A DNA stretch of 64,000 nt, from the NCBI RefSeq assembly GCF_002443295.1, contig NZ_BAOS01000001.1, positions 124,001 through 188,000 of the forward strand. Direction: 5' to 3'. The DNA comes from Candidatus Scalindua japonica. GTDB taxonomy: Bacteria; Planctomycetota; Brocadiia; Brocadiales; Scalinduaceae. Below the pieces are notes generated by a model that did no database searches, was not told the origin of the DNA, and was given only the letters and a program-made list of their open reading frames with translations. Positions 34,677 through 61,327 of this stretch are shown in pieces. Made by a program: the position numbers and the translations under genes. How positions within the stretch are numbered: the stretch's first letter is position 1; the number at the start of each line of letters is the position of its first letter.

Positions 34677-35830
34677 ATGCTGAAATTAATTTCAAAAAAT
34701 AACTTGAAGAAAATAATACGTAATCCTCGTAATGCCATTGCTAAAGGAAAGAGTAAGATTATTACCCAGGTTGCGGCATCGTATTTAAAGGGATACAGTC
34801 CGTTTCCTCAGAACCTGACTTTTTTTTTAACATATAGATGTAATTTGAGATGTAACGTATGTGGTCAGTGGGGTGACACTGGCTATGTCAAGGATTTCTC
34901 AGCTAGTCAGATGAAGGACGAAGTAGAGATAAGCACATTGAAAAGAGTGATTGCTGAAATATCCCCATACAAACCCAGGATAAATTTGTGTGGGGGAGAG
35001 GTTTTGCTGTACAAAGACTGGTTTAAGTTTCTCAGTTTTGTTAAATCAAAACATCTTGAGTGTTTTTTGACAACAAATGGTACTATGCTCGAAGAGAATG
35101 CGGAGAAGATAGTGGATTTATGTTTAGATAAAATAAGCCTTTCTCTTGACGGACCGGAAAAAATACATAATATTGCAAGGGGAGTCGGTGATAATGTCTT
35201 TAAAAAGGCTATACGTGGCATCGAATCAATTAACAGGTATAAAAATAAAAAAACAAAAAGAAGCCAGACATTGAAATAGGATGTACTATTTCCGAGCAGA
35301 ACTATAAGTATCTTGATGATGTTATAGATATTGCAGAGTCTTTGAATGTCAATTGTCTTATTTTTCTTCATCTTATATTTGTAAAAGAAGATGAATTAAA
35401 TAGACAGATCGCTGTTTTCCGCGAACTATTTCAGACAGAGTCAATTCATTGGGCAGGCTATAGATACAAACCTGACGGAATTGATGTCGAAATTCTGGTA
35501 AAAAAAATTGAGGAGATTAAATCCCGCAAATATAAAATGCCTATAGTTATTCATCCTGATTTTACCAGAGAAGAAATTATAAGATATTATCGTGAACCGG
35601 TTTTTTTATCAAAATCATATAGTAATACATGCATAGCGCCATGGACTTCTGTTTATGTTCTTCCAAATGGCGATATCAGCCCGTGTTCAAGTTTTGTAGC
35701 AGGAAATATAAAGAATGAAAGCTTTAAAAAAATATGGAATAATCAAAAATTCAGACACTTTCGAACCGAACTAAGAGAGAAAAAATATTTTCCGGTATGC
35801 CACAGGTGCTGTGAATTTTATAAGCATTAA
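34677..35830 (+). pseudogene. Radical SAM/SPASM protein interrupted by a frameshift
   Basis: The first part (34677-35279) has the radical SAM motif CNLRCNVCGQW, GGEVLLYKDW and LTTNGT. The frame then ends at TAG 35279. In the -1 frame the protein continues without a break (KPDIEIGCTISEQNYKYL...) to 35830, with a SPASM-like end: WTSVYVLPNGDISPCSSF, NGDISPC and FPVCHRCCEF. The switch lies in an A-rich run (A7 at 35247-35253); one extra A would restore about 385 residues. It could be a real mutation, a sequencing error or programmed slippage. The intact product would be a cofactor- or glycan-linked radical SAM enzyme. Confidence 0.85.
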
Positions 35831-35847
35831 GGACTGATTAATAATAA

Positions 35848-37308
35848 ATGTCAAAATCTTACCTTGCAAAAGGAAGCTTTTTTTTATTTGCCGGAATGGT
35901 ATTTAACATGGTTATTGGCTATGTAAATACTGTGTTGGTTCTGGGGTTTGTTGAAGTTTCTCTATACGGTACAATAATTTTTCTGATTACCATTATGGAG
36001 GTGATCGCGGCAATTTCCCGGCAGGGAATGCATGTGGCGGTAACTAAGTATATTTCAGAATATGTTGGAAAAGGGGATAAAGGTACTGCAAAAAAAATAT
36101 TTAATGATTCTAAGTGGTTCGTTATCTTTGTCGCAATAGTACTAACTGTCGTTTCTCCATTTATTTATAAACTCTTATTACCTCATAAGATAATAAGTCA
36201 CATAAGTTATCCATTATTTTTAATTTGTTTTATTCCATGTGTTTTTCTTAATCCGCTTCTGATTTTAAACCAGAATGGTTTTATGGGCTTAAGATTAAGC
36301 GCGTTAAGCTCAATTACGGGTTTCTTTCTTCAGCCAGTTTTTAGAATAATATGCATCTTATCAATATTGGCTATCTTGCCAACTATTACAGGGTTGATAT
36401 ATGTACAAATTGTTCCTCTGGTACTTGCTTATCTTATATCCGAGATACTAATTAATAACAAGGATTTTGGTTTCACGTTACCATCTTTTAAGCATACTAA
36501 ATTGCTTTATAAATTTTCTGCTCCCTTGATAGGAACTGAGCTGTTAATGTTGTCAATTGATAAGATGGATAAGGTTTTTCTGGGTTATATGGCTACCACT
36601 GAATCTGTTGGAATATATAATGTAGCAAGCAAAATTGCTTTCATTGTGGTTATACCTTTTTGGGCAGGAGCACAGGTGTTGGCACCACTTTTTTCTGAAT
36701 ATTGGTCCAAAAACCAGATTAAACAACTTAATGAAATATACAAATATTCTTCCTATCTATTTTTATTTATAGCAGGTTCGGTTGTGATTTTTTTATGGAT
36801 AAATATCAAATTAATATTAGGGGTTTTTGGTGAACAATTTGTTAATAATGAAGCGGTAGTAGTAACAACAATTTTAAGTTTAAGTCTTTTTTTAACAATT
36901 TTACCTGGCTGCTTTTCTCAGTTAATAAGAATGTCCGGGAAAACGTATCTTTCTACTATAAATACTTTTTTAATAGGTTCTTTAAATTTTGTATTAAATT
37001 ATTTCTTGATTCCAGAATATGGAATGCTTGGGGCAGCCATTGCGACTGCAACTGCTGTTTTATGTGGTCACTTAAACGGATTCATTATTTTAAAATTTAT
37101 TTATAAAGGTACCGTTTCTCCCTTCAGCTATAATTATTTTCTTGTATTAGCAACGATCTCAGGTGTAAGTATTTTAGTTTATTATTCACCGAATTTGATT
37201 TTGGATAATGTATTGGCCTTTTTCATAATGTCACTGATTGGATATGTGATGTTTAGAAGTGAATTAAGTAAGGTAATGGTGAAATTGAGGGCTCGTATCA
37301 ATTTATAA
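35848..37308 (+). CDS. Wzx-like flippase (MATE/MVF superfamily)
   Basis: A 486-residue membrane protein with about 12-14 helices and few charged residues except in short loops. The start SKSYLAKGSFFLFAGMVFNMVIGY and ISRQGMHVAVTKYISEY are typical of polysaccharide biosynthesis flippases. It would flip lipid-linked repeat units across the inner membrane for the Wzy-like polymerase at 33158. The ATG follows the frameshifted radical SAM gene by 17 bp; its ribosome site is weak (AAGGA, distant). Confidence 0.93.
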   Translation: MSKSYLAKGSFFLFAGMVFNMVIGYVNTVLVLGFVEVSLYGTIIFLITIMEVIAAISRQGMHVAVTKYISEYVGKGDKGTAKKIFNDSKWFVIFVAIVLTVVSPFIYKLLLPHKIISHISYPLFLICFIPCVFLNPLLILNQNGFMGLRLSALSSITGFFLQPVFRIICILSILAILPTITGLIYVQIVPLVLAYLISEILINNKDFGFTLPSFKHTKLLYKFSAPLIGTELLMLSIDKMDKVFLGYMATTESVGIYNVASKIAFIVVIPFWAGAQVLAPLFSEYWSKNQIKQLNEIYKYSSYLFLFIAGSVVIFLWINIKLILGVFGEQFVNNEAVVVTTILSLSLFLTILPGCFSQLIRMSGKTYLSTINTFLIGSLNFVLNYFLIPEYGMLGAAIATATAVLCGHLNGFIILKFIYKGTVSPFSYNYFLVLATISGVSILVYYSPNLILDNVLAFFIMSLIGYVMFRSELSKVMVKLRARINL

Positions 37309-37400
37309 CAGAATTAATTTAGCTCGAACACAACTTTTCGGATTTTTTTAAAAATTAATTTGGATTCAAGACGTTTCAATAACATCTGGAATTATTTTAT

Positions 37401-38366
37401 ATGTTACCATTATATCTTTTAAGCATACCCCGCTCTGGTTCTACTCTTGCACAACGAATTCTTGCGTCACATAAGGATGTTGTTACCGTTGCTGAGCCGT
37501 GGTTATTGATTCCCTATCTTTATACATTGAAGAAAAAAGGTGTTTACGCGGAGTATAGCCATAAGATATTATCAGAAGCACTTGAAGACTTTTTCCACTA
37601 TTTACCAAATGGCAAAGACGATTATTTACATAGCATAAGAGAGTTTACGCTCGGTCTTTACCGTAAGGCAGCAAAAATTGAGGTAAAGTATTTCTTAGAT
37701 AAAAGTCCTCGTTACCATTTAGTTGTGGAGGATATCATTACTCTTTTTCCGGAAGGGAAATTTATATTTCTTTGGCGTAATCCTCTGGCGGTAGCCGCAT
37801 CTGTCCTTAATTGGTCTGATGGAAAGTGGAATTTTCATTTTCAAATTGATCTTTTTAAGGGTCTGGCAAATTTGATTGCAGCTTATGATGCACATTCCAA
37901 TTTAGCTATTAGTGTGCGTTATGAAGATCTGCTTATTAATCCACGGGATGAATGGGAGAGGATATTAAATTATTTAGACCTTCCATTTGATCCTGACTTA
38001 TTGTCTAGATTCAGCGATGTTCAGCTTAGAGGAAGAATGGGTGATCCTCATGTTTCTCATGCAGTATACCAGGATGTTAGTACAGAGCCTTTGGATAAAT
38101 GGAAGAATGTTCTGAGAAATCCCTTTCGAAAGGCCTGGTGCAGACGATATTTACGATGGATTGGTGCGGAACGGCTTAATGTGATGGGTTATAATTTAGA
38201 CGAACTTTTAAACACGCTCAATTCCATACCTTCCAGTCCGCGATATCTTGTTTCGGATATAATGCATTTTGTGTTTGGGTTTATCTATTATAATTTGGAT
38301 ATAAGGATTGTAATACATAAGTTACGTGCTTTTTACACCTGGTTTCGTATGCACGGACATACTTAA
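37401..38366 (+). CDS. PAPS-dependent sulfotransferase
   Basis: A 321-residue cytosolic sulfotransferase. The 5'-phosphosulfate loop is LLSIPRSGSTLAQRIL near the N-terminus; the 3'-phosphate site is FIFLWRNPLAVAASVL with the conserved Arg; VRYEDLLINP is the third family block. It transfers sulfate from PAPS to a hydroxyl group, here presumably on a sugar of the polymer. Its presence in the EPS run suggests a sulfated polysaccharide, as expected for a marine or brackish organism. That is inference. Confidence 0.93.
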   Translation: MLPLYLLSIPRSGSTLAQRILASHKDVVTVAEPWLLIPYLYTLKKKGVYAEYSHKILSEALEDFFHYLPNGKDDYLHSIREFTLGLYRKAAKIEVKYFLDKSPRYHLVVEDIITLFPEGKFIFLWRNPLAVAASVLNWSDGKWNFHFQIDLFKGLANLIAAYDAHSNLAISVRYEDLLINPRDEWERILNYLDLPFDPDLLSRFSDVQLRGRMGDPHVSHAVYQDVSTEPLDKWKNVLRNPFRKAWCRRYLRWIGAERLNVMGYNLDELLNTLNSIPSSPRYLVSDIMHFVFGFIYYNLDIRIVIHKLRAFYTWFRMHGHT

Positions 38367-38393
38367 TAAATTTATCAATCAAGAAATAAATTC

Positions 38394-39653
38394 ATGAATA
38401 TCTTAATTGTTTCTCCATTTTTTCCTCTTCCCCTTTCATCGGGTGGACATACAAGATTATTTAATATCATCAAACACCTCTCGTATCGCCATGTTGTGGA
38501 TTTAATTTCTCCTATCACAGAAAAGGAGAAGAATCATGTACAGGAGCTTTCCGGGTTTTGCAGAAATATAGTAACGATTAATATTGATAATCTCTATGTT
38601 AGAGAGAAAGGTTATTTTTTCAGGATTAATAACTACCTCCGATTATTTAACAGAATATATTGTTTCTTTAAAGGTGTTCCGATGGAAATATCAGGTTTTT
38701 ATTATCTCGAAATGCAGAAAAAATTAATTAATCTTTTGAAAAATAACAACTATAATATTGTACAGGTTGAGTTGCCTAAAATGGCACAGAATTTTGATAA
38801 ATCATTTTATAAAGAAAATCGTTCACTTAAGATTCTTGTTGATTACGACATTTCTTTCATCCCCTATTTAAGAAATTATCACTGTGAGAAGAAAAAGTTT
38901 TTGAAATTAAAAAAATATATTGATTACAGAATGCATAGATTTTTTGCCTTAAAAACCTGGAATCAGTTTGATAGACTTGTCGTCATGTCAGAGGTTGATA
39001 GAAGGAAAGTAAATGATATATTGCCGGAGCTCTCTGTACATGTGATACCGAACGGTGTGGATCTTGCCAGTTTCAGGCCTTTTCCAAAGGAAGAAGGAGA
39101 TAACAGGTTATTGTTTTTGGGAGGTGCAGGACACTTTCCCAATGTTGATGCGCTTTTTTATTTTTTAAAGGAAATATTCCCAGAGATCAAGAAACGGATA
39201 AAAAAGTTCTCTGTGGTAGTTATTGGTGATTGTTGGAATAGATACTCTGATCAACTACCCCACGATGCATCAATAGAGTTTACTGGTTTTGTTAAAGATA
39301 TACGGCAGTATATCAACGATTCAACTGTTTTAATAACACCAATACGAATTGGTGGCGGCACAAGGCTGAAAATTGTAGAGGCTATGGCGTTGAAGGTCCC
39401 TGTTGTCTCTACCTCTGTTGGATGCGAAGGCTTTTCAGTTGAGGATGGACAACATATCTTACTGGCTGATAAACCAGATGATTTTGCTATAAAGGTTCAG
39501 GAAGTTTTCTCAAATAAACAATTGTATAATACATTGACAGAGAATGCCTATAAATTGGTAAAGGAAAATTATGGTTGGGACAAATTGGTATTAAAGTTGG
39601 AAGACATTTATGAGTATACAACAGAAGAAAGAAAAATGCAGAAAGCCGGTTAA
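38394..39653 (+). CDS. GT4-family glycosyltransferase
   Basis: A 419-residue GT-B fold glycosyltransferase. The N-terminal domain opens NILIVSPFFPLPLSSGGHTRLFNII. The C-terminal nucleotide-sugar domain has HVIPNGVDLASFRP, LLFLGGAGHFPNVDAL, VLITPIRIGGGTRLKIVEAMALKVPVVST and the EAMA Glu motif. It acts at the cytoplasmic face on lipid-linked intermediates. The next gene starts 44 bp before its stop, so translation is likely coupled. Confidence 0.94.
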   Translation: MNILIVSPFFPLPLSSGGHTRLFNIIKHLSYRHVVDLISPITEKEKNHVQELSGFCRNIVTINIDNLYVREKGYFFRINNYLRLFNRIYCFFKGVPMEISGFYYLEMQKKLINLLKNNNYNIVQVELPKMAQNFDKSFYKENRSLKILVDYDISFIPYLRNYHCEKKKFLKLKKYIDYRMHRFFALKTWNQFDRLVVMSEVDRRKVNDILPELSVHVIPNGVDLASFRPFPKEEGDNRLLFLGGAGHFPNVDALFYFLKEIFPEIKKRIKKFSVVVIGDCWNRYSDQLPHDASIEFTGFVKDIRQYINDSTVLITPIRIGGGTRLKIVEAMALKVPVVSTSVGCEGFSVEDGQHILLADKPDDFAIKVQEVFSNKQLYNTLTENAYKLVKENYGWDKLVLKLEDIYEYTTEERKMQKAG

Positions 39654-40626
39654 TGAAGTCATTACGACAGAGAACACAATAATTTCCATAGTCATTGTCA
39701 ATTATATGACAAAGGAGTTGTTAAGTGATTGTTTGAAGAGCATTTTCAGGGAGGATTATAAAAGAAATCAGATTATAGTCGTTGACAACAATTCAACTGA
39801 TGGAAGTGCGGAAATGGTTGAAGAAGATTACCCAACAGTACATCTTATAAAAAATAAAGAAAATGTTGGTTTTGCTAAGGCAAATAATATAGCAATCAAG
39901 CATGCCATAGGGGAATATATATTACTTTTGAATCCGGACACGGAACTCACTGACTCGACTATCGAAAAACTTGTTGGATTTATGGAAAAAGATACCAGTG
40001 TAAGTGCATGTGGATGTATGGTCTTATATCCTGACGGCAGGATCCAGATTTCCTGTGGTTATTTTCCGTCATTTTCATCTGCTTGTCTGGGAGGTCAATC
40101 AATTAATATGCTGTACAGGAAAATTTTTCCCAATAGTAATTTTCTTGGTGCGTGTGGAATTACCCCTGAGGCCCTGAACTCTATTCAAGAAGTAGAGACT
40201 CTCCTTGGAGCATGTGTTATGATAAGGAGAGAGGTATTGGAACAGGTTGGGCTTTTTGACGAAAATATGTTTCTGTATTTTGAGGAGTGTGACCTTTTTT
40301 ACAGGATAAGGAAGGCAGGGGGAAAAGTGATGTATACACCCGATACTAAAGTCATCCACCATGCGGGTGGGAGTAGTAATAAAAATATTTCCAAAGCGGT
40401 TATGTACTATCAAAATAGCCAGGAATATTATTTTATAAAAAACTATTCATTAAAAAATATAAAATTATTCAAGATGGCAATCATGATCAGCGCAATAATA
40501 AAAACCCCTTTCCTGTCTCTTATGTATGTATTCTGTAATAAGGATAGAAAGTTGGAACAGCGAAGAAAAATAGCCTGGCACTGGTACACGTTTCTCTATC
40601 AATTAAAAATGTTAATTTTACAGTAA
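39610..40626 (+). CDS. GT2-family glycosyltransferase (rhamnosyltransferase-like)
   Basis: A 338-residue GT-A fold enzyme. It has ISIVIVNYMTKELL, VVDNNSTDGS, the DxD-type LNPDTEL, and LGACVMIRREVLEQVGLFDENMFLYFEECDLFYRI, the block usual in WbbL-like transferases. The ATG at 39610, with GGAAG upstream, overlaps the previous gene by 44 bp. The C-terminal hydrophobic stretch (about 285-310) may bind the membrane. Sugar specificity is unknown. Confidence 0.93.
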   Translation: MSIQQKKEKCRKPVNEVITTENTIISIVIVNYMTKELLSDCLKSIFREDYKRNQIIVVDNNSTDGSAEMVEEDYPTVHLIKNKENVGFAKANNIAIKHAIGEYILLLNPDTELTDSTIEKLVGFMEKDTSVSACGCMVLYPDGRIQISCGYFPSFSSACLGGQSINMLYRKIFPNSNFLGACGITPEALNSIQEVETLLGACVMIRREVLEQVGLFDENMFLYFEECDLFYRIRKAGGKVMYTPDTKVIHHAGGSSNKNISKAVMYYQNSQEYYFIKNYSLKNIKLFKMAIMISAIIKTPFLSLMYVFCNKDRKLEQRRKIAWHWYTFLYQLKMLILQ

Positions 40627-40645
40627 AGTTTTTTTAAAAAATATT

Positions 40646-42145
40646 ATGAAGCTTATTATCATATATCCTGACATATTAAAAGGCGCGAACTGGTCCGGTT
40701 ACTATTACACGGGTGTTGGATACATTTCTGCTGCTGCGAAAAAAGCCGGTCATAATGTATCTTTAATGCATATTACCTGCACCCCGGACCAGCATGAATT
40801 CATGAATATGCTCAACAATATCATCTCCCCTGGCAATGAAGCTCTTATAGCATTTTCTGCTACAACAAACATGTTTGGCTTTGTAAAACTCTGGGCGTCA
40901 TGGATAAAAAAAGAATATAAAAATATTATTATTGTTGGAGGCGTACATCCTACCCTAAACCAGGAAGAAACAATCAGTGTAGAAGCTATAGATGCCATAT
41001 GTATAGGGGAGGGAGAGGCTCCTCTGGTTGAATTTATGGATGCATTAGAAAATGGGCGGGACATAACAGGCATACAGAATATATGGACCAAAGTCAATGG
41101 TAAGGTCTGTAAAAATCCTGGCAGGGAAAAAATAAAAGATCTCGATACTTTACCATTTCCTGATAGAGCGATCTTTGATTATAAGAATCTGGACCGTGAG
41201 AGAGAGGGAATTGGTGTCTTTATGGCATCGCGTGGGTGCCCATTTAACTGCTCTTACTGTTGCAACCACGCTATTATGAAAAGTATAGGCGCTTCGAAGG
41301 GATACCTGAGATTCAGGAGTGTTGATAATGTAATAAAAGAGATGAAGCAGGTAGTTCAAGATTATCCATTTATTAAATATATGCACTTCGATGATGATAT
41401 CCTTCCGATGAACAAAGATTGGTTTAAAGAATTCTCAGATAAATATTCAAAAGAGATTTCGTTACCATTTGAATGTAACATACGTCCAAACCTCATAGAT
41501 GAGAATACGATAAAACTTCTCAGCCATTCGGGATGCAGAACACTCAGGATAGGCCTTGAGAGTGGAAATTCTTTCATCAGAAACAAGATATTAAACCGAC
41601 ACCTTTCCGAAGATGAAATCGTCAGGGCCTCTATTATTTGTAAAGATGCGGGCATAAGGCTTTACACATTTAATATGGTGGGTATGCCATTTGAAGATAT
41701 GCCAGCAAGGCTGGATACTATAAAACTAAACGCTAGAATTAATTCAGATGAAGAACAGGTTTCGATCTTTTACCCTTATGAGAAGACAAAGCTGTTTGAT
41801 ATCTGTATGGAGCAGGGTCTTATCAGAAAAAAAGAAGTGACTGACCCATTCAAAGACACATCGTTATCTTTCAATCGAATTCAAAGGAATCAGATTATCT
41901 TTACGGCGTATTACTTTAATTTATTGGTGAGAAATTATAAATTCTACTTTAAATTACCAGAAAGTTTATCAAAAATAATTATTAAAATATCTGATGGGCT
42001 GTTCTCTTCCCGCATTATCGCGCTGACTGTTTTTCCAACTATGAATTCCTTTGTGAGGTTCTTGTCAAAGAATAAAAGGCTTGAAGAATTTGCAAGAAAG
42101 GTGAAACACACCATTTTAAATAGTAGTACAGTCACAGAGGAATAA
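40646..42145 (+). CDS. Cobalamin-binding-type radical SAM protein
   Basis: A 499-residue protein. The N-terminal B12-binding-like domain (1-150) includes YTGVGYISAAAKKAGHNV and IIVGGVHPTLNQEE. The radical SAM core starts with SRGCPFNCSYCCNH (CxxxCxxC cluster ligands) and has MHFDDDILPMNKDW and LRIGLESGN. A C-terminal extension with basic and hydrophobic residues follows. Relatives methylate unreactive carbons or phosphorus, or form rings. It lies within the glycosyltransferase run and ends 2 bp before the next gene. Substrate unknown: a sugar, the polyprenyl lipid or another lipid are all possible. Confidence 0.92.
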   Translation: MKLIIIYPDILKGANWSGYYYTGVGYISAAAKKAGHNVSLMHITCTPDQHEFMNMLNNIISPGNEALIAFSATTNMFGFVKLWASWIKKEYKNIIIVGGVHPTLNQEETISVEAIDAICIGEGEAPLVEFMDALENGRDITGIQNIWTKVNGKVCKNPGREKIKDLDTLPFPDRAIFDYKNLDREREGIGVFMASRGCPFNCSYCCNHAIMKSIGASKGYLRFRSVDNVIKEMKQVVQDYPFIKYMHFDDDILPMNKDWFKEFSDKYSKEISLPFECNIRPNLIDENTIKLLSHSGCRTLRIGLESGNSFIRNKILNRHLSEDEIVRASIICKDAGIRLYTFNMVGMPFEDMPARLDTIKLNARINSDEEQVSIFYPYEKTKLFDICMEQGLIRKKEVTDPFKDTSLSFNRIQRNQIIFTAYYFNLLVRNYKFYFKLPESLSKIIIKISDGLFSSRIIALTVFPTMNSFVRFLSKNKRLEEFARKVKHTILNSSTVTEE

Positions 42146-42147
42146 AA

Positions 42148-43299
42148 ATGAAGCCATTAAGGATCGGCATCAACGCGTTATTTCGTGGTAAACCTACAGG
42201 TGCTGCAAACTACATCATTAACCTGGTTAAGTATTTAGCGAAAATTGACCGGTACAATGAATACTATATTTTTGTTACCGATTCAAATAGAGGTTATTTT
42301 GATCTATCGCAGCATAATCAGCATGAAATATTGTGCTCAGTTAAAGCTGAAAGGCCCATCCTCAGAAGGGCATGGGAACAGATAATATTTCCATTTATTG
42401 TCAGTGAGCAGAAGTTGGACATTCTACACTGCCCTGTAAACGTTGTGCCAATCTTTTCCAGATGCAGGAATGTTGTTACTTTTCTGGATTGTCAGTACTT
42501 TCATGAATCATCGACAAATACATTTTTAAGAAAACTTTTTCATAATCTTTTCATGCGCAAGACATTAAAAAAAGCTGATATCATCATGACGATATCAAAC
42601 AGCATGAAAGAAGAAATTTTACATTATCTTGGTGACAACGATACTACTGTTTTTGTTACACACCTTGGGCAGGATTACAGCAGAACTAATGGCAGACATG
42701 TTGACCCGGAAAGAATTAAACGAGACCTGGGAATAACAAGAAAATATATCCTTTTTGTGGGTTTCCCACAGTACAGGAAGAACCTGACAGGATTACTGAA
42801 GGGATTTGCGAATGCCTGTAAAGAACTTCACGAACCTTATGATTTGATTATATGTGGTGATATTGAGACAAAAATAGAATCAGACTATCCTAACATTTTA
42901 AGGACAATCGATGAACTAAAGTTTAGAAAATATATAAAGTTTACCAACTATCTGGAAACTGATGATTTGCAGGACTTAATAACAGGAGCGGAGTTTTTTG
43001 CATTTCCCTCATTTTATGAAGGTTTTGGGCTTCCCGTCATAGAAGCAATGGCTTGCGGGACACCTGTTTTAGTGTCAGATATACCTGTAATGCGAGAAGT
43101 AGCCGGAGAAGCGGGAACGTATATTGATCCATATGATGTTGATGATATTTCAAGGGGTATATGTCAACTGCTTTTAGATAATGACCTCAGAGAGAAGTTG
43201 CGAATAAAGGGAAAACAAGTCGCATCTCAATTTACCTGGGAAAATACGGCAAGCAGGACCCTGAAGTGTTATCATCAAACGGTTAAAAAAGATACTTAG
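42148..43299 (+). CDS. GT4-family glycosyltransferase (mannosyltransferase-like)
   Basis: A 383-residue GT-B enzyme. The start, LRIGINALFRGKPTGAANYIINL, is typical of WbdA/MtfB-like mannosyltransferases. The donor domain has KYILFVGFPQYRKNLTGLLKGF, FFAFPSFYEGFGLPVIEAMACGTPVLVS and the conserved Glu in EGFGLPVIE. Ribosome site CAGAGG with the ATG directly after the previous stop. The sugar donor cannot be fixed from sequence. Confidence 0.94.
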   Translation: MKPLRIGINALFRGKPTGAANYIINLVKYLAKIDRYNEYYIFVTDSNRGYFDLSQHNQHEILCSVKAERPILRRAWEQIIFPFIVSEQKLDILHCPVNVVPIFSRCRNVVTFLDCQYFHESSTNTFLRKLFHNLFMRKTLKKADIIMTISNSMKEEILHYLGDNDTTVFVTHLGQDYSRTNGRHVDPERIKRDLGITRKYILFVGFPQYRKNLTGLLKGFANACKELHEPYDLIICGDIETKIESDYPNILRTIDELKFRKYIKFTNYLETDDLQDLITGAEFFAFPSFYEGFGLPVIEAMACGTPVLVSDIPVMREVAGEAGTYIDPYDVDDISRGICQLLLDNDLREKLRIKGKQVASQFTWENTASRTLKCYHQTVKKDT

Positions 43300-46133: not shown

Positions 46134-46364
46134 GAAGAGAAACCAAATACCTGTTACATAAATATCGAGTCGCCAGTATGTAATGACGGTTATTTCAAAA
46201 AAACTTGCTTTGTATTATTTTGTATTAAGCAATAAATCACTTATGTGCAACAGGATAAAAGATCAAGGTCCTTTCGCTGATATATGAGCTGTATGTTTAC
46301 ACGGTTTATTCTGAAGATTTCTGTTTAAGATACTGGATTATTGGCAGGAAAAAAAATAGAGATA

Positions 46365-47171: not shown

Positions 47172-47172
47172 T

Positions 47173-51770: not shown

Positions 51771-53264
51771 ATGAGGGTACTGTTCTATTACAGAGGGATT
51801 GAAGCGCCCGGGGTTGAATATCTTATGTCGTACCTCAAGATGAAAGGTCATCAGGTAGGGCTGCTGTTTGACCCTGGCCTTGATGACAATCTCTTTCTAA
51901 AACTCAAATTTATGAAAAGGTTCAATCAGTATGAATACCTCCTCGAGAAGGCCAGGGACTTTAAACCTGATATCCTTGCTTTTTCTATTGTTACTAATAT
52001 ATATCCTTTTATTAATGCGATACTCCCCACATTAAAAAAAGAGTTATCTGTCCCGGTTATTGCTGGAGGTCCACATGTATCAGCTCTCCCTGAGTATGTG
52101 CTTCAGAATGAGCATATTGATATGGCTTGCATAGGAGAAGGGGAATTAGCTTTTGCGGAGTTACTGGATAAAATGGAGAGGGGCGTAGAAATATATGATA
52201 CTAAAAATATATGGTTCAAAAAAGACGGCGAGATAATTAAAAATGATCTCAGGGGCCTGGTAGAGGATCTTGACCAATTGCCGTTCCCGGAGAAAGGTCC
52301 ATTTTATGAATACGGATGTTTTCATGACAACCTGGAGGTAGTGACGGGGAGGGGGTGCCCCTACAATTGCACATTTTGTAATATCCATTTTCAGCGTAGT
52401 CAGACAAAAGGGAAAGGAAATTTTTTACGGCAAAGAAGCGGCGCCAACGTTATACAGGAAATAAAAAAGCATCTGGAACTATATGATGTAAAGTGCATAA
52501 CATTCCATGATGACAACTTCACTTCGCATCCGCAGTGGATAGAGGAATTTACAGAACTTTATAGAAAAGAGGTGAACCTGCCTTTTTACTGTTTTGCCTA
52601 TCCAACTTCGGTTAACAGGGAGATTATATCTCACCTGAAACGCGCAAACTGTATGCAGATTTTTATGGGACTAGAGTCTGGGGACCCGAATATTCGCAGG
52701 GATATTCTAAAGAGGCCCATGTCTAATGAGCGGATAATAAGTTCTGCAAATATCATAAAGGATTCCGGTATTAGGCTGCAAATTTCAGGTATATTCGGAT
52801 TTCCTGAGGAAAAACCTGAGTCCATGTGGAAAACAGTTGAGCTGGCAGAAACCATAGCTCCAGACCTGATAACCGGCTATGTATTTTATCCTTTCCCGAA
52901 GACTGAATTATTTAATTACGCAGTCAAGAGCGGATATCTTGGTGAGGAGGAAGTTGAAATGGTAAAAAGAGGCGAAGGTGCAATCCATCATGAAAGTATC
53001 CTCAGGCATCCTGAGAAGAAATTGGCCTCTACGCTTGCCAGGCTCATCCCGATATACATTAAATCGCCATCTCTATTCAAGCCACTAATTAAGAAAATCA
53101 TGGTCAGAAAGAAGGCCAGGCTGGCCCTTTTGATTTATTTAGTATCAATTCCTGTCGCCTTACCTTTTCTGGGTATAGAAGGGATAAAAGTAACTCTCAA
53201 GATGGCCTGGCGTGCATATCATTTGAGGCGCAAGCCGTTAGCTCAAGAGGATCAGGTGTTTTAA
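51771..53264 (+). CDS. Cobalamin-binding-type radical SAM protein (group 2, copy 1)
   Basis: A 497-residue protein, MRVLFYYRGIEAPGVEYL. The N-terminal domain has GLLFDPGLDDN and VIAGGPHVSALPEYVL; the radical SAM core has TGRGCPYNCTFCNIHF, FHDDNFTSHPQW, IFMGLESGDPNIRRDIL and GIFGFPEE. A hydrophobic patch near the C-terminus (LALLIYLVSIPVALPFLGIEG) suggests membrane attachment, so a lipid or lipid-linked substrate is plausible. A second copy follows after 138 bp. Ribosome site GTGAGG. Confidence 0.93.
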   Translation: MRVLFYYRGIEAPGVEYLMSYLKMKGHQVGLLFDPGLDDNLFLKLKFMKRFNQYEYLLEKARDFKPDILAFSIVTNIYPFINAILPTLKKELSVPVIAGGPHVSALPEYVLQNEHIDMACIGEGELAFAELLDKMERGVEIYDTKNIWFKKDGEIIKNDLRGLVEDLDQLPFPEKGPFYEYGCFHDNLEVVTGRGCPYNCTFCNIHFQRSQTKGKGNFLRQRSGANVIQEIKKHLELYDVKCITFHDDNFTSHPQWIEEFTELYRKEVNLPFYCFAYPTSVNREIISHLKRANCMQIFMGLESGDPNIRRDILKRPMSNERIISSANIIKDSGIRLQISGIFGFPEEKPESMWKTVELAETIAPDLITGYVFYPFPKTELFNYAVKSGYLGEEEVEMVKRGEGAIHHESILRHPEKKLASTLARLIPIYIKSPSLFKPLIKKIMVRKKARLALLIYLVSIPVALPFLGIEGIKVTLKMAWRAYHLRRKPLAQEDQVF

Positions 53265-53402: not shown

Positions 53403-54887
53403 ATGAAGGTACTTTTTTACTACAGGGGAATTGAATCTATCGGAGTGGAATATCTTATGTCCTATCTGAAAATGAAGGGACATAATGTAGAACTGATTTT
53501 CGACCCCGGGTTGGATGATAACCATTTCCTGAAACTTAAGTTCATGAAAAAATTTAATCAGTATGAATCCCTCCTGGAAAAGGCTAAAAGTTTTGATCCA
53601 GACATTATCGCGGTTTCCATTCCGACTAATTTATATCCTTTTGTTAATAGAATAATACCTCTCTTGAAAAAGGAATTACCCGTCCCCATAATAGCGGGCG
53701 GTCCGCATGTATCAAGCCTTCCTGAATATGTTCTGGAGAACGAAAATATTGACATGATATGCATTGGAGAAGGGGAAGAGGCGTTTGCAGAGCTTTTGGA
53801 CAAAATGGAGAAAAAATTAAACATCTATGATACAAAAAATATGTGGTTTAAAAAAGAGGGAAGAATTATCAAAAACGGTACCAGGAACTTGATTGCAGAC
53901 TTGGACCAGTTGCCTTTTCCTGATAAAAGCCTGTTTTATGAATATGGATGTTTTTATGATAATCTCGAAATGGTAACCGGAAGAGGGTGCCCATTCAAAT
54001 GCACATTTTGTAATATCCATTTCCAGCGCAGTTTGGCAAAGGACAAAGGTAGTTTTATACGCAGAAGAAGTATTCCAAATATCATACAGGAACTTAATGA
54101 ACATTTGAATCGATATGATATAAAATATATATCATTCCACGACGACAATTTCACTACGAGTATCGATTGGATAGAGGAATTTGCAGAACTTTACAAGAAA
54201 GAGATTAATCTTCCTTTTTATTGTTTTGCGTATCCTACAACAGTTAATAAAGAAATAGTATCACAACTTAAGAACGCAAACTGTATGCAGATATTTATGG
54301 GTATGGATTCAGGCGATCCGGATATTAGAAAGAATCTTCTCAAAAGGCCTATGTCTGACGAGCGAATAGAGATGTCAGCTAAAATCATAAAAGATTCAGG
54401 TATAAAACTGCAATTGTCAACTATATTTGGATTTCCGGAAGAGACCCCGGAGTCAATGTGGAAAACCTTACACCTTGCGGAAAAGGTAAATCCTGATATC
54501 GCATCAGGCTATATATTCTATCCCTTTCCAAAAACAGAACTATATGAATACTCTATCAAAAAGGGGTATCTTGGTAATGAAGAAATCGAGAGGATCAAAA
54601 GGGGTGAAGGTGGTTATCATCATGGCAGTATTCTTAAACATCCTTACAAAAAATTAGCCGTGACACTATCTAAGCTTATACCTGTTTATAACAAAACTCC
54701 ATCAATGTTCAGGCCTTTAATAAAATGGCTCATGGCCAGAGAATGTACAAAGCTGGCTCTTGTTATTTATATAATCTCTATTCCTATAGCTTTTCCATTT
54801 CTGGGTATTGACGGTATAAAAGTGACTCTTAGAATGGCCTGGAAAGCATATAGGATGAAGGTGAAGACAGCAAGGCGTGGGAATTAA
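53403..54887 (+). CDS. Cobalamin-binding-type radical SAM protein (group 2, copy 2)
   Basis: A 494-residue tandem paralogue of the preceding protein, similar over its whole length: MKVLFYYRGIESIGVEYLM, IAGGPHVSSLPEYVLENENI, TGRGCPFKCTFCNIHF, FHDDNFTTSIDW, IFMGMDSGDPDIRKNLL and the same hydrophobic C-terminal patch. In the conserved LESGD block it has MDSGD. The two copies may act on successive positions of one substrate or form a pair. Ribosome site AAGGGGT. Confidence 0.93.
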   Translation: MKVLFYYRGIESIGVEYLMSYLKMKGHNVELIFDPGLDDNHFLKLKFMKKFNQYESLLEKAKSFDPDIIAVSIPTNLYPFVNRIIPLLKKELPVPIIAGGPHVSSLPEYVLENENIDMICIGEGEEAFAELLDKMEKKLNIYDTKNMWFKKEGRIIKNGTRNLIADLDQLPFPDKSLFYEYGCFYDNLEMVTGRGCPFKCTFCNIHFQRSLAKDKGSFIRRRSIPNIIQELNEHLNRYDIKYISFHDDNFTTSIDWIEEFAELYKKEINLPFYCFAYPTTVNKEIVSQLKNANCMQIFMGMDSGDPDIRKNLLKRPMSDERIEMSAKIIKDSGIKLQLSTIFGFPEETPESMWKTLHLAEKVNPDIASGYIFYPFPKTELYEYSIKKGYLGNEEIERIKRGEGGYHHGSILKHPYKKLAVTLSKLIPVYNKTPSMFRPLIKWLMARECTKLALVIYIISIPIAFPFLGIDGIKVTLRMAWKAYRMKVKTARRGN

Positions 54888-54907
54888 CAAGGGAATGTTT
54901 TCTATCA

Positions 54908-56110
54908 ATGGATGTAAGAACTGATAATCAAGGGTTAAACGGTCAAGAGTTTAAAAAGCAGTCTATTGTTCTTGAGTCAAGACCAACTCGCGCGTGGATT
55001 TCATTTGCAGGTAAATGTAACCTTAAGTGTGCCCACTGTCCCCGAGCAAGCTATAATGAGTCGGATTTGAGTTCCAATGACATGTCACTGGAACTATTTG
55101 AAAAACTTAAAATCCTTTTTCCATTACTGGAAAAATGCAAGATTGGAGGCAATAACCTTGGCGAACAGCTTTTAGCTGAACATTGGGAACGTTTTTCAGA
55201 TTGTATTGGTAAATATCCTTTTGAGCGTTATTTAGTAACAAATGGGTTACTTTTAGATTCTGAAAAGATTACTCAATTAGTAAGAAATGGCTGGAGTATC
55301 GATTTTTCTACTGAAGGTGCTACAAAAGAGACCTATCGAAGCATAAGAGGTGGTAATTTTGACAAATTTATTGCTGTTATTCAAGAATGTTGTAACCAGA
55401 AGAAATCTCATGGATCAACTAACGCTAAAGTAAGGATTGGTTTTACCGCTTTTTATGACAATATCAGCGAATTATTATTACTTATAAGAACTGGTGCTGA
55501 CCTGGGAGTGGATGAAATTTTAGTATCACACCTTATACCTACAAAAGAATGTCAAAGAAATCAATCCCTCGTGTATCATAAAGGGTTGTCTAACTCTATT
55601 TTTAACGAAGCAAGGACCCTGGCTCAAGAATTGGGAATTTCACTTAAACTGCCTCCGCCATTTCCCATCAGGAAAATGAAGGGCGAGAATGGGTCTATGG
55701 AAGAGACAACCAGTCAATGGGCAAATAAATTGTGTCATCATCCATGGACATCTATCAGTGTAGATGAAAATGGTGTTGTTATGCCATGCTGTGTTTTTGA
55801 TACACCGATGGGTAATCTGCAGGAAGAAGGTTTTGAAGAGATCTGGAATAACCGAAGGTATCAGAGACTGAGAAAGACCGTTAATTCAAACCCCACTGGT
55901 AAGTGCAGGAATTGCCCACTCAGGGGAAGAGAATATACAGGTATGAATTGCAACGATGATTTGGCGCTATTAAGCGTAATAGGCATAGCAGATCATATTG
56001 ACACCGGCTACTTTCTCCGTTTGAAGGTAAGAGAAGTTTTTGGTCAAACAGGGTGGGGTAAAAAAATGCTGCATAAAATAAAGTCTATCAATAAAAGATT
56101 TACATTTTAG
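54908..56110 (+). CDS. Radical SAM/SPASM protein
   Basis: A 400-residue protein with radical SAM motif GKCNLKCAHCPRAS, KIGGNNLGEQLL, LVTNGLLL and STEGATKETYRSIRGG. The SPASM-like end has KLCHHPWTSISVDENGVVMPCCVFDTPMGNL, IWNNRRYQRLRKTV and CRNCPLRG. It is a relative of those at 34677 and 43328. It follows the tandem B12-type pair by 20 bp and is last in this gene run; a 377-bp gap follows. Confidence 0.92.
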   Translation: MDVRTDNQGLNGQEFKKQSIVLESRPTRAWISFAGKCNLKCAHCPRASYNESDLSSNDMSLELFEKLKILFPLLEKCKIGGNNLGEQLLAEHWERFSDCIGKYPFERYLVTNGLLLDSEKITQLVRNGWSIDFSTEGATKETYRSIRGGNFDKFIAVIQECCNQKKSHGSTNAKVRIGFTAFYDNISELLLLIRTGADLGVDEILVSHLIPTKECQRNQSLVYHKGLSNSIFNEARTLAQELGISLKLPPPFPIRKMKGENGSMEETTSQWANKLCHHPWTSISVDENGVVMPCCVFDTPMGNLQEEGFEEIWNNRRYQRLRKTVNSNPTGKCRNCPLRGREYTGMNCNDDLALLSVIGIADHIDTGYFLRLKVREVFGQTGWGKKMLHKIKSINKRFTF

Positions 56111-56487
56111 AATATTAATCGTGTTTAAAGAAATCAATTATTTTTGAAAATATGAGAAGTTATGTAAATAATGAATGTGTGTGCCAGTTCTTTTCTGGTT
56201 TCCAATGTTCTTTTAGATTGATGTTGGACATGTAACATCTGGAATGGTTTGTTATTGTTTTTATTGTTAAATAGTGTAAAATGGAATACGATTTTTATTG
56301 TTTGGTTAAATGTATAAAAAAATCAAAGACAAGGCGCTTCTGTCGTTCTTCTCTCAGAATAACACTTTGAAGTGTCAGTCTTGTTTTTTTAGTCAAGAAT
56401 ATAACTTGATAGATAATAGAGTTATCGAAAATCTTTAAACATAAAAAAATATTTTTTTAACATGTATGGCCGTATGGAGGTAACGTT
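56111..56487. other. 377-bp intergenic stretch
   Basis: AT-rich. A short palindrome (ACACTTTGAAGTGT, 56362-56375) is followed by a T7 run at 56384, a poor terminator candidate because the loop is too small. No gene is seen. A new promoter for the propeller-protein genes is likely here. Confidence 0.4.
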
Positions 56488-58161
56488 ATGAAGATTCGAA
56501 GTATGATATGTTACACGGTTTTGATATTTTTTTTCCTGCTGGTGTTTTCGAAGATATCATCAGCATGGTTCAGTGACCCTAAAATCAATACACCCATTCA
56601 ACCTGTGACAGTCAGTCAGATAGATCATTCTGCTTTGTCTGATGGTACAGGTGGGGCTATAATAACCTGGGCAGAGAATGTAGGTGGTAACCCTCAAGAG
56701 TTTGATATTTACGCGCAAAAGATAGATTCTCAGGGAAATAGAGTATGGCCTTTCCCAATAGAAATATGCACTGCTCCGAGCTTTCAGGGAATACCAAAGA
56801 TTACGCGTGATGGTGTAGGAGGTGCGATTATCGTCTGGCATGATACGAGAAGTGGATTTGGCCAGGGAGGGCAGGAAGGTGACGAATTTGATAATTTTGA
56901 TATTTATGCACAACGAATAAACGGTGATGGACAGATACTGTGGGCAGAAAATGGTGTTCCCGTTTCTGAATCTGCCAAATGGCAGGTATATCCCGTTATT
57001 GACACGGACGGACTTGGCGGTGCAATTATTGCCTGGGATGACGGGCGGTCTTTTAATTCTCAGGTTTATGTTCAAAGAGTTGACCAGAATGGAAATATTC
57101 TCTGGGGACAGGACGGTTTACTGATTGCGGTGATACCTCCGGAAGATGGTCAGTCAGACCCCAGAATTGTTGCTGACGGATTTGGAGGTGCAATCGTTGC
57201 CTGGACTGACTTGCGATCAGGCATTAATACTGACGCCTACGGACAAAGGGTTGATGGAAATGGAAACAGGTTATGGGGGATAGGCGGCGTTCCGTTGGCT
57301 TCAGTTGTTGGAGACCAGCTCTTGGTTAGAGTAGCGAGTGATGGTGTTGGCGGGGGTATATTTTCATGGACAGACTCGCGTGATGGAAGTGAAGAGTTTG
57401 ATATATATGCTCAGAGAGTAGATGCGGGAGGCACTATTGCCTGGTCTCCTGAAGGGATACCCGTCTGTAATATAACGGGAAGTCAGATAAAAAATGAGAT
57501 AATCAGCGATGGTCTGGGAGGGGCGCTTGTTACATGGGAAGATGGAAGAAGAAGTGACTCGGTAAATAACATTACTCATACAGACTTATACGTTCAGAAG
57601 GTTAATTCTCAGGGACTTACTGTCTGGGACGCTGGAGGGGTTGTAGTAGCTGCTACCGATGAAGCTCAAATACGTCCCTCAATATTGTCAGATGGTTCAG
57701 GAGGAGCGTTTATATCATGGCAGGATTTTTTCAGGGGAGGTACCTGGTGGAACATATACGCTCAACATATTGACGAAAGCGGGCAGGCAAAGTGGAAAAA
57801 TGATGGGATCCCTGTTTCCATTGCAGATGAAATACAAACCGATCCACTTATTATTTCAGATGGGACTGGGGGGGTAATTATTTTGTGGTATGACAACAGG
57901 GCTGGCACTTATTTTAATATATTTGCACAACAGGTAGATTCCCGTGGTCTGCTCGATGGCGGTAAATATAATTTTTTTACAGCTGATAAGGATGGTAACC
58001 CGAAAACCGCATTTGCGCCGGGTGAATTGATTCTGTTTAAATCTTCATGGACTGTACCGGCTCCATTAATATCAGGTACATATCTTGGTTTATCCGGAAC
58101 AGTCATTAATTCAGGCGCTAAATTTCAGGGTGATACTACTACCTATGAGGTAAGTCCATAG
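56488..58161 (+). CDS. Secreted propeller-like repeat protein, copy 1
   Basis: A 557-residue exported protein with signal peptide 1-28 (cleavage after SSA, before WFSDP). Eight repeats of about 50-65 residues follow, each reading roughly (V/S)DGxGGAIIxWxDxR...DIYAQRVDxxGxxxWxxxGxPV, a pattern that suggests an eight-bladed beta-propeller. A C-terminal domain (about 485-557, KYNFFTADKDGNP...TYEVSP) has the look of a beta-sandwich. It has no membrane anchor or PEP-CTERM. Function is not known; surface or matrix protein is likely. Ribosome site TGGAGG. It is followed by its paralogue after 41 bp. Confidence 0.85.
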   Translation: MKIRSMICYTVLIFFFLLVFSKISSAWFSDPKINTPIQPVTVSQIDHSALSDGTGGAIITWAENVGGNPQEFDIYAQKIDSQGNRVWPFPIEICTAPSFQGIPKITRDGVGGAIIVWHDTRSGFGQGGQEGDEFDNFDIYAQRINGDGQILWAENGVPVSESAKWQVYPVIDTDGLGGAIIAWDDGRSFNSQVYVQRVDQNGNILWGQDGLLIAVIPPEDGQSDPRIVADGFGGAIVAWTDLRSGINTDAYGQRVDGNGNRLWGIGGVPLASVVGDQLLVRVASDGVGGGIFSWTDSRDGSEEFDIYAQRVDAGGTIAWSPEGIPVCNITGSQIKNEIISDGLGGALVTWEDGRRSDSVNNITHTDLYVQKVNSQGLTVWDAGGVVVAATDEAQIRPSILSDGSGGAFISWQDFFRGGTWWNIYAQHIDESGQAKWKNDGIPVSIADEIQTDPLIISDGTGGVIILWYDNRAGTYFNIFAQQVDSRGLLDGGKYNFFTADKDGNPKTAFAPGELILFKSSWTVPAPLISGTYLGLSGTVINSGAKFQGDTTTYEVSP

Positions 58162-58202
58162 TATCAATAAGATATTCTTAAAAAAATAAGGAGGTATATG
58201 TA

Positions 58203-59843
58203 ATGAAACTCAATATATTCAATGTAATTATATTTCCATTTGTTGTAATGATGGTTTTTCCAGGGGTATCATTTTCGTGGTTCAATGATCCTCTTCTCAA
58301 TACATCTGTAGCACCGAATACTAATATTCAGGTGGAACAAACCGCTATTGTTGATGGTAACGGGGGTACAATAATATCATGGTCTGAGCAAGCGGCTGGC
58401 GGTACCGGAGAGTTTGATATTTATGCGCAAAGGTTAGATTCCAAAGGAAAACCGTTATGGCCGTCACCGGTAGCAGTTTGTACAGCATCATTTGATCAAG
58501 GTTCTCCCGCGATGATCGGCGATGAATTTGGCGGCGCCATTATTATTTGGGGAGATAGAAGAGAAGTGGCAAATGGTTCTCCTGATGAGTTGGATATCTA
58601 TGCTCAACGAATTAATGGTAATGGACAGGTTCAGTGGGCAACTGACGGTATTCCCGTATCTACAGCTTCCGGATGGCAGACTAACCAGGTTATTGCTCCA
58701 GATGGATTGGGTGGTGCATACATTGCATGGGACGATTATCGCGATGGCAATCATGTCTATGCTCAGAGGGTAGACCAGAATGGCCAGACTATCTGGCAGG
58801 AGAATGGGCTGATAATGCGTGATGTCCCGCCCTCTACATCTTTTCATCAGGTAAAACCGGATATTGTATCTGATGGCTTAGGAGGAGTTTTCATAGTCTG
58901 GACTGATTATCAACCAGTGAGCCTTACCAATATTTTTGCCCAGAAACTGGACCATGATGGGAATAAGCTATGGGGTATAGAAGGACTTGCCATCTGTACC
59001 GAACTCGAGGCACAGTTTGATGCATATGTCGCCAGTGATGGGTTTGGTGGTGCTATATTTACATGGACAGATGGCCGTCTTGGTAATAATGATCTTGATA
59101 TTTATGCCCAGAGAGTAGACGTCGGCGGAAATTTACATTGGCAGGTCCAGGGGGTTCCCATAGTAACCATTCAAGAAAACCAGTTCGTAAACGCGATGGT
59201 AAGTGATGGTGGTGGTGGGGCGATTTTAGTCTGGTCAGATACCAGAAAACAAAACGGAGATACGGACATCTATGCGCAGAGAGTGTCTGCTCAAGGTGCG
59301 CTGATATGGGATATTGGAGGAATGCCTGTCGCAACTACTGATGATTTGCAGAGTAATCCTGTATTAATCTCTGATGGTTTAGGTGGAGCGTTTATAACCT
59401 GGCAGGATTTTTTCAGGGGAGGCACGATGTGGAATGTCTATTCTCAGCACGTAGATGGAAGCGGGCTGCCAATGTGGATAGTAGATGGGATCGCCGTTTC
59501 AATTGCTGATGAAACACAGAATAATCCCTTAATTATTCCAGATGGTTCAGGAGGATTCATAAATATATGGTCCGATGACAGATCAGGGACATACACTAAT
59601 ATCTTTGCGCAACAGGTAGACAACCGTGGACTTTTAGGTGGTGGCAAGTTCCTGTATTATACGGCAGATAAAGATCGTAATCCTAAGACTGTTTTTACCC
59701 AGGAAGAACTTATACGATTTACATCAAGCTGGACGGAAGCTGCCCCCTTAACCCCGGGCACATACCAGGCCGCATCAATAATGATTATAAATAATTTTAC
59801 TGACTTCAGACATGAAACGGTAACATATGATGTAATTCCGTAA
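58203..59843 (+). CDS. Secreted propeller-like repeat protein, copy 2
   Basis: A 546-residue paralogue of the preceding protein. The signal peptide ends near FSWFNDP. Eight repeats with the same ...SDGLGGAFITWxDxR...NxYAQ(R/H)VD...W pattern and the same C-terminal domain (KFLYYTADKDRNPKT...TYDVIP) follow. The two proteins align blade by blade, and blade 7 is almost identical (GGAFITWQDFFRGGT), so the gene was duplicated whole. Ribosome site AAGGAGG. It might dimerise with copy 1 or bind a different ligand. Confidence 0.85.
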   Translation: MKLNIFNVIIFPFVVMMVFPGVSFSWFNDPLLNTSVAPNTNIQVEQTAIVDGNGGTIISWSEQAAGGTGEFDIYAQRLDSKGKPLWPSPVAVCTASFDQGSPAMIGDEFGGAIIIWGDRREVANGSPDELDIYAQRINGNGQVQWATDGIPVSTASGWQTNQVIAPDGLGGAYIAWDDYRDGNHVYAQRVDQNGQTIWQENGLIMRDVPPSTSFHQVKPDIVSDGLGGVFIVWTDYQPVSLTNIFAQKLDHDGNKLWGIEGLAICTELEAQFDAYVASDGFGGAIFTWTDGRLGNNDLDIYAQRVDVGGNLHWQVQGVPIVTIQENQFVNAMVSDGGGGAILVWSDTRKQNGDTDIYAQRVSAQGALIWDIGGMPVATTDDLQSNPVLISDGLGGAFITWQDFFRGGTMWNVYSQHVDGSGLPMWIVDGIAVSIADETQNNPLIIPDGSGGFINIWSDDRSGTYTNIFAQQVDNRGLLGGGKFLYYTADKDRNPKTVFTQEELIRFTSSWTEAAPLTPGTYQAASIMIINNFTDFRHETVTYDVIP

Positions 59844-59902
59844 CATACATTCATGATTTTAATAAAATAGTATGTTCAGGTACCATTCCCGACCCTTTAA
59901 AT

Positions 59903-61327
59903 ATGGACAAGAAAAAAATTAAAATACTTTTAATCAGCCCTTATCCTGATAGTGGACTGACAGATATGAAAGAGCCTCCTCATGGTCTGGCATATATTGC
60001 GTCTAATTTGAGGGATAATGGCTTTAAAGTAGAAGCTATAGATGCCAAACAACGTTTTATGAAAACTCATGTTGTGATAACCGAGGCGGTTAAAAGTAAG
60101 CCGGATCTTGTGGGTATTACAGCAATGACCCCTGATATAACCTGTGCAGCCATTATCGCCGGGGGTATTAAAGCCGCTTTGCCCCGAGTATTTACCGTAA
60201 TAGGGGGGCCTCACGTAAATGCCTTACCTGAAGAAACACTTGAAGAATTTCCTTCTTTTGATCTGGCGGTAGAGGGAGAAGGGGAGTTTACCATGTTAGA
60301 ACTCGCCAATAAACTTGAAAAAGGAAATTTGCCTTCTGCTCTCCCGGAAATTAAGGGTATAGCTTACCGTGATGTTGAAAAAATCATTCTGAACCCTCCT
60401 AGGGATTATATCCATGATCTTGATATACTTCCTCCTCCCGCATGGGACCTTTTCCCATTTTCTCATAATAAATCATATCCTGTATATGCAACTCGTGGCT
60501 GTCCTTTTGCTTGTAAATTCTGTCAGCGTGTGTTGGGCAATAAAGTAAGGAGGAGGAATATTGAAAAAATTGTGAGAGAAGTAACATGGGTCCTGGATAC
60601 GTTTAAAACAAAAGGTTTTTGGTTTGCCGATGAGACATTCGGCGCGAATCGTAAATGGACACACCAACTCTTAGACCACATGATAGAAGCAGGCATACCT
60701 TCCAGGGCTACCTGGCATGCTCAGACAAGGGCGGACTTAATTACAGAGGATTTATTAACCAGGATGAAACAAGCCGGGTGCGATGGGTTGGCTTTTGGCG
60801 TTGAATCTGGAAACCAGGAAATACTGAAAAAAACTAACAAGAATATAAAGCTGGAAGACGCGGAAAGGGCAGTTTCCTTTGCAAAAAAAGTAGGGGTAAA
60901 GACTAGGTCATTCTTTATACTGGGACATCCTTACGAAACTATTGAAACGATAAAAGACACTATTAACTTTGCCGCAAAATTAAATACGGATTTTATATCA
61001 TTTGCAGTTATGGTGCCTTATCCGGGTACTGAGGTCTGGAGGCTTGCCAGTATGAAAGAGGCAGGCTATAACTATGTATCTCGAAATTGGGATGATTATA
61101 GAAAACATCTTGCTGCACCACTGGGGTTTTCTTCAATTCCGGCTGAAACCCTGAGGAATTTAGACAGGAATGCGTATTTGATCTTTTACTGGCGTAATCG
61201 CAGATGGTTTGACTTATTTGACTTCCTCTGGGGACACAGATCTATGATTAAGGCGTACATTTTTAATAAGATAAAGGAAAAGCTATATAGATTCCTGAGC
61301 ATATTCACCTCATGTCCGGTAAAATAA
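59903..61327 (+). CDS. Cobalamin-binding-type radical SAM protein (group 1)
   Basis: A 474-residue paralogue of the protein at 49626. The N-terminal part has EPPHGLAYIASNLRDNGFKVEAIDAK, VGITAMTPDITCAA and VIGGPHVNALPEETL. The core has ATRGCPFACKFCQRVLG, WFADETFGANRKW, AFGVESGNQEIL and FILGHPYETIETIKD. The C-terminus is basic. It sits among secreted-protein genes rather than glycosyltransferases, which may mean it was moved or acts on a different product. Confidence 0.93.
   Translation: MDKKKIKILLISPYPDSGLTDMKEPPHGLAYIASNLRDNGFKVEAIDAKQRFMKTHVVITEAVKSKPDLVGITAMTPDITCAAIIAGGIKAALPRVFTVIGGPHVNALPEETLEEFPSFDLAVEGEGEFTMLELANKLEKGNLPSALPEIKGIAYRDVEKIILNPPRDYIHDLDILPPPAWDLFPFSHNKSYPVYATRGCPFACKFCQRVLGNKVRRRNIEKIVREVTWVLDTFKTKGFWFADETFGANRKWTHQLLDHMIEAGIPSRATWHAQTRADLITEDLLTRMKQAGCDGLAFGVESGNQEILKKTNKNIKLEDAERAVSFAKKVGVKTRSFFILGHPYETIETIKDTINFAAKLNTDFISFAVMVPYPGTEVWRLASMKEAGYNYVSRNWDDYRKHLAAPLGFSSIPAETLRNLDRNAYLIFYWRNRRWFDLFDFLWGHRSMIKAYIFNKIKEKLYRFLSIFTSCPVK

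Follow-up and report, generated by a model that had tools for sequence, protein, structure and literature searches.

A 64,000-nucleotide window of the Candidatus Scalindua japonica genome (contig C1, positions 124001–188000; "the window" below means this whole stretch, and coordinates are counted from its first letter) contains an exopolysaccharide (EPS) locus in which eight radical S-adenosylmethionine (radical SAM) genes, five of them of the cobalamin (B12) type, are set among glycosyltransferase genes. The locus spans 28374–62810, with all genes on the plus strand. As judged from its gene content, it is a Wzx/Wzy-type exopolysaccharide locus with embedded radical SAM genes: the flippase (PF01943), polymerase (PF04932) and export (PF02563) profiles all scored above their cut-offs, and a weak Wzz, a BY-kinase-like ATPase, an initiating transferase, a sulfotransferase and six glycosyltransferases, including a GT-C enzyme, were also present. 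We consider it reasonably probable that the radical SAM enzymes tailor polyprenyl-linked sugars in the cytosol before these are flipped and exported. The genome measures 4.8 Mb, and the GC content of the window DNA is ~37%. The hydrazine synthase alpha gene is present in this genome and in 22 of the 28 relatives but missing from all 14 control genomes, which identifies the host as an anammox bacterium.

Radical SAM genes of the locus

Pfam searches detected a B12-binding domain (PF02310, 48–85 bits; cut-off 32.1) and a Radical_SAM domain (PF04055, 74–99 bits; cut-off 29.5) in the same five proteins, denoted enzymes a (40646–42145), b (49626–50993), c (51771–53264), d (53403–54887) and e (59903–61327). 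The Radical_SAM domain was also found at 34677, 43328 and 54908, and the CxxxCxxC motif was kept in all eight genes. The count given by the first-pass annotation, which was made from the sequence alone, was thereby confirmed, with one gene (34677) broken by a frameshift in the assembly. Based on their domains, the motif and the fold of enzyme d, the five proteins are assigned to the cobalamin-type (class B) radical SAM enzymes and may bind cobalamin.

The other three genes had been described as SPASM-like, which held for radical SAM/SPASM enzymes 2 (43328–44389) and 3 (54908–56110), both carrying PF13186 next to PF04055. The open reading frame (ORF) at 34677–35279 encodes 200 aa comprising the radical SAM half only (PF04055, 62.4 bits); a SPASM domain (PF13186, 63.2 bits) was located at 35342–35830 in another frame. 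Full-length homologues align to the first half and then to the second, in order, and the two ORFs are therefore one frameshifted gene. The frameshift site lies in an A-rich stretch near 35240–35262, and the split gene (34677–35830) may reflect either gene decay or a fault in the assembly. For enzyme 2, the nearest solved chains were BtrN and cytosylglucuronate decarboxylase, with E values of 1e-9 to 5e-8. In enzymes c and d, a C-terminal hydrophobic segment (hydropathy 2.4 over 19 residues) is accompanied by a strongly basic tail, a combination that is consistent with a membrane-bound substrate.

The claimed interleaving with glycosyltransferase, flippase and sulfotransferase genes was likewise verified by Pfam, and most of the radical SAM genes are packed between glycosyltransferase genes, at spacings to their neighbors of 19, 2, 28, −14, 11, 49 and 20 bp. 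Enzyme a is preceded by a GT2 glycosyltransferase (39610–40626; PF00535, 102.3 bits) and followed 2 bp downstream by a GT4-type enzyme (42148–43299; PF00534, 114.7 bits). The gene for enzyme 2 overlaps by 14 bp a PMT/ArnT-type GT-C membrane glycosyltransferase gene (44376–46133; PF13231, 57.2 bits). Between enzymes b and c lies a DPM1-like polyprenyl-phosphate sugar synthase of the GT2 type (51005–51721; PF00535), which matched dolichol-P-mannose synthase 5MLZ with E=1.5e-26 and reached no named NCBIfam subfamily cut-off. A scan for promoters and terminators gave a signal no better than chance.

Genome-wide totals were 83 radical SAM and 31 B12-domain matches. The presence of 8/83 and 5/31 of these within 36 kb corresponds to binomial p values of 2e-7 and 3e-6, respectively, which are post hoc, as the region was picked because it is dense.

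Family placement, phylogeny and structure

None of the radical SAM proteins attained a curated NCBIfam family cut-off. The top NCBIfam match was HpnJ for enzymes a, c and d (127–149 bits) and BchE for enzymes b (226 bits) and e (201 bits). Across the B12 proteins, scores ranged over 127–202 bits for HpnJ (cut-off 577.6), 83–226 bits for BchE (TIGR02026; cut-off 481) and 88–130 bits for the ladderane-type family TIGR04072 (cut-off 360).

In a tree of 96 rows, among them two solved fragments and HpnJ-like proteins scoring at most 430 bits, the five proteins formed three lineages. Enzyme a falls in a clade whose members mostly adjoin GT4 genes. Enzymes c and d, a tandem duplicate with 71% identity, belong to a clade of 14 rows (SH-aLRT 98), for 8 of which a DPM-like gene lies no more than 5 kb away. 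Enzymes b and e form sister branches (support 99). Both the TIGR04072 clade and the HpnJ-like clade sit apart from the window proteins. A role in ladderane synthesis, which the first-pass annotation had offered as an alternative, was rejected on the TIGR04072 scores and on the position outside the clade. The best TIGR04072 candidate of this genome is located on another contig (G000:C5:315k); its match is truncated and also stays under the cut-off.

The model of enzyme d (pLDDT 90) gave whole-chain fold matches to AprD4 (Z 28.2), MgmA (27.9), OxsB (26.4) and CysS (25.8), with 15–21% identity over the aligned part. The shared fold indicates the mechanism class and not the reaction, which is not transferable at this identity. 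AprD4 has been solved with the aminoglycoside paromamine, and sugar substrates are thus compatible with the B12-type radical SAM fold. AprD4 itself is known not to use B12.

Linkage to glycan genes

Glycan linkage was quantified with profiles for glycosyltransferases, flippase and initiating transferase, counted per 10 kb. As glycan-gene density was flat with distance inside the 20-kb loci, external control regions were used; the density was 0.07 in 20 regions drawn at random from four genomes and 0.08 in 19 regions laid out on a grid over this genome. The corresponding densities were 0.79 around 80 loci with relatives of enzymes c and d and 1.47 in anammox loci, ratios that are inflated because part of the profile training data came from the compared loci. 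The density was 1.55 in nine loci harboring the closest relatives of enzyme b, none of which was used in profile training. Ten glycosyltransferase neighbors were checked, and all were true GT2, GT4 or PMT enzymes by Pfam.

Among 199 sampled B12 genes, 23 had a DPM-like glycosyltransferase within 500 bp on the same strand, and these came from at least seven phyla. One locus of the same genus (L123) shows the order B12-DPM-DPM-B12-PMT, close to the order B12-DPM-B12-B12 of the window.

Besides the inflated ratios, three further points weigh against a tailoring role. The proteins are too distant from characterized enzymes for reactions to be assigned. Elsewhere in the same genome, the enrichment of B12-type genes near glycosyltransferases was weak (4/26, p = 0.17). 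Finally, in G026, a complete 4.4-Mb anammox genome from a family to which the window genome does not belong, none of 19 listed B12 radical SAM sites lay within 5 kb of a GT2 match; one site (L136) adjoins an initiating sugar transferase. The linkage is thus limited to some B12 radical SAM subfamilies.

Recurrence in other loci and genomes

According to the first-pass annotation, ordinary EPS loci contain no radical SAM gene or a single one. Within this genome, that held for the glycan-rich stretches of contig C45 (95–135 kb and 150–185 kb), which contain none, and failed for a second EPS locus on contig C11, which has nine to ten. A glycan locus in a second anammox genome, from another family of the order (G021:C108, L023–L030), has some eleven B12 genes and many of the SPASM type spread over 160 kb. 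Given these two loci, we regard the organization as a trait of a lineage and not as a peculiarity of the window. A search by similarity to enzymes c and d alone returned 80 loci from many bacterial and several archaeal phyla. In two Omnitrophota loci (L044 and L045), several B12 radical SAM genes also follow one another directly, intermixed with SPASM genes.

No close homologue of the Wzy protein (33158–34669), and by that measure no orthologous locus, was found in the 28 relatives. The best match of enzyme b in another genome had 43% identity, and that of enzyme d within the genus 37%; no relative was found in the viral contigs searched. As far as these comparisons reach, the exact locus is accessory and its architecture recurrent, so that the conservation in relatives raised by the earlier annotation applies to the architecture (as in G021:C108) and not to the exact locus. 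The refuting outcome named there, namely proteins that group with scattered housekeeping families and have no conserved linkage to glycan genes, was not what we observed: these are not scattered housekeeping families, and the linkage is conserved in kind, although not gene by gene.

Remaining genes of the locus and its surroundings

The locus opens with a Wza-like polysaccharide export protein (28374–29138; PF02563, 66.9 bits) and a Wzz-like chain-length determinant (29268–30785), which remained below the cut-offs of PF02706 (21.5 bits; cut-off 25.5), PF13807 (23 bits; cut-off 27.7) and TIGR03007 (101.8 bits). These are followed by the BY-kinase-like ATPase (31051–31710; PF13614, 43.9 bits), the initiating polyprenyl-phosphate sugar transferase (31726–33156; PF02397, and TIGR03025 with 424.9 bits against a cut-off of 295.6) and the Wzy/O-antigen ligase family polymerase (PF04932). 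Downstream of the frameshifted gene are the Wzx flippase (35848–37308; PF01943, 64.4 bits), the sulfotransferase (37401–38366; PF13469, 90.7 bits) and a GT4-type glycosyltransferase (38394–39653; PF13692, 88 bits). A further GT2 enzyme (46341–47171; PF00535, 76.5 bits) precedes a secreted GH26 endo-glycanase with domains resembling carbohydrate-binding modules (47152–49386; PF02156, 60.3 bits), whose PDB matches were endoglucanase H and mannanases.

Two secreted repeat proteins (56488–58161 and 58203–59843; 52% identical) are encoded ahead of enzyme e. No Pfam family scored over its cut-off, and from the all-beta repeat model of the first (pLDDT 66) the pair are probably beta-propellers. A secreted GDSL/SGNH-type esterase (61410–62810; PF00657, 38.2 bits) completes the locus.

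Several features of interest flank it. Upstream of the EPS locus, the window encodes an ODP/flavodoxin-type protein (22914–24131) and a PEP-CTERM protein (24693–25379). About 6–18 kb upstream of the window start (L013:2112–14432), a 2305-aa polyketide synthase-like protein with KS, KR, ACP, sulfotransferase and condensation domains precedes three B12 radical SAM genes. The DNA that adjoins the window on its downstream side (L014:2–8401) encodes a surface protein with 20 FG-GAP repeats, two arylsulfotransferases and another radical SAM/SPASM protein.

Discussion

The first-pass annotation had suggested that the polymer or its lipid carrier may bear several carbon-linked methyl groups, rings or epimerized sugars. 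The best reading is that the enzymes tailor the glycan or its lipid-linked precursors, because they sit in an EPS locus and the linkage of their relatives to glycan genes is far above background. Radical SAM enzymes are cytosolic, their Fe-S clusters confining them to the cytoplasm, and those of the locus would therefore act before Wzx and export. A DPM-like synthase and a GT-C enzyme are the usual pair making and using polyprenyl-phosphate sugars, and from this pair we infer polyprenyl-linked sugars, or nucleoside diphosphate (NDP)-sugars, as substrates. These would be repeat-unit precursors on polyprenyl phosphate, or a monosaccharide from the DPM-like synthase at 51005 that is used later by the GT-C enzyme at 44376. 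The enzymes would modify unactivated carbons, the B12 type by C-methylation, deoxygenation or ring rearrangement and the SPASM type by dehydrogenation, epimerization or decarboxylation. In this way they probably rework sugars beyond what ordinary enzymes achieve. The modified unit would then be flipped, polymerized and exported, and the sulfotransferase would add sulfate.

The closest precedent is HpnJ, which acts after the glycosyltransferase HpnI and the deacetylase HpnK and completes the conversion of a lipid-linked glucosamine into a cyclitol ether (PMC12583986). As in the window, a glycosyltransferase is linked to a B12-type radical SAM enzyme, in that case acting on a lipid-linked sugar (PMC12583986). 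In contrast to that system, the setting here is an EPS locus with five such enzymes and no hopanoid genes identified, and enzymes a, c and d fall far short of the HpnJ cut-off, in a separate clade. BchE, the anaerobic Mg-protoporphyrin cyclase, is the top match of enzymes b and e and has the same domain order, but its cut-off was missed and no bacteriochlorophyll genes were identified in the locus. Known Wzx/Wzy-dependent EPS loci share Wza, the initiating transferase, Wzy, Wzx, glycosyltransferases and a secreted glycanase with the present locus, whereas here eight radical SAM genes are set among the glycosyltransferases. In the literature searched, no paper describing B12 radical SAM enzymes from polysaccharide loci turned up, a result with no bearing on closed journals. 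The radical SAM-rich organization looks new, although it is built from known enzyme and locus types.

Other assignments of the same enzymes were weighed against sugar tailoring. The B12 enzymes might modify membrane lipids, such as ladderanes, hopanoids or another glycolipid, with the locus making a glycolipid instead of, or besides, a polysaccharide. The host is an anammox bacterium, the nearest named families are HpnJ and BchE, and hopanoids, ladderanes and tetraethers are reported or proposed substrates of non-methylating B12 enzymes (PMC13142503). We nevertheless judge this unlikely: all these family cut-offs were missed, the proteins share with TIGR04072 the superfamily and the bacterial group but lie outside its clade, and we identified no genes of the fatty-acid or squalene/hopanoid type in 28374–62810. 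If instead the polyprenyl carrier were the target, through methylation or cyclization of its isoprenoid chain, the recurrent pairing with DPM-like polyprenyl-phosphate transferases and the hydrophobic C-terminal segments of enzymes c and d would fit. Five enzymes from three lineages exceed the need of one carrier modification, however, and this assignment appears quite improbable.

It is very unlikely, moreover, that the radical SAM and EPS genes merely share a hypervariable island that collects foreign genes with no common pathway. The accessory nature of the exact locus, with no close Wzy in relatives, and the many phyla among the tree relatives would be expected of such an island; the overlapping or nearly overlapping genes, and an adjacency to the same glycosyltransferase types that is repeated across many phyla, would not. 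Least credible of all is a role in peptide or protein modification, as in the maturation of ribosomally synthesized and post-translationally modified peptides (RiPPs) or of glycoproteins. Many B12 and SPASM enzymes do modify RiPPs, and RiPP families were among the weak NCBIfam matches, but their cut-offs were missed, and a search for a RiPP precursor in three intergenic gaps returned ORFs of 21–55 aa, none of them convincing.

Tailoring of polyprenyl-linked sugars may be part of a wider scheme. According to a recent preprint, every non-methylating B12 radical SAM enzyme known so far either forms or rearranges a ring (PMC13142503). We tentatively raise the idea, which we hold to be rather doubtful in this full form, of a widespread module in which B12 radical SAM enzymes, DPM-like synthases and GT-C enzymes rearrange or ring-contract polyprenyl-linked sugars. 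Through such a module, the polymers of anammox bacteria, and of many bacteria and archaea that are uncultured, would contain carbocyclic, C-branched or multiply C-methylated units. Little is understood of the polymers that anammox cells make, and substrates are known for few of the B12 radical enzymes. The pairing of B12 radical SAM and DPM-like genes offers a concrete guess at the substrate of many unassigned enzymes of uncultured lineages.

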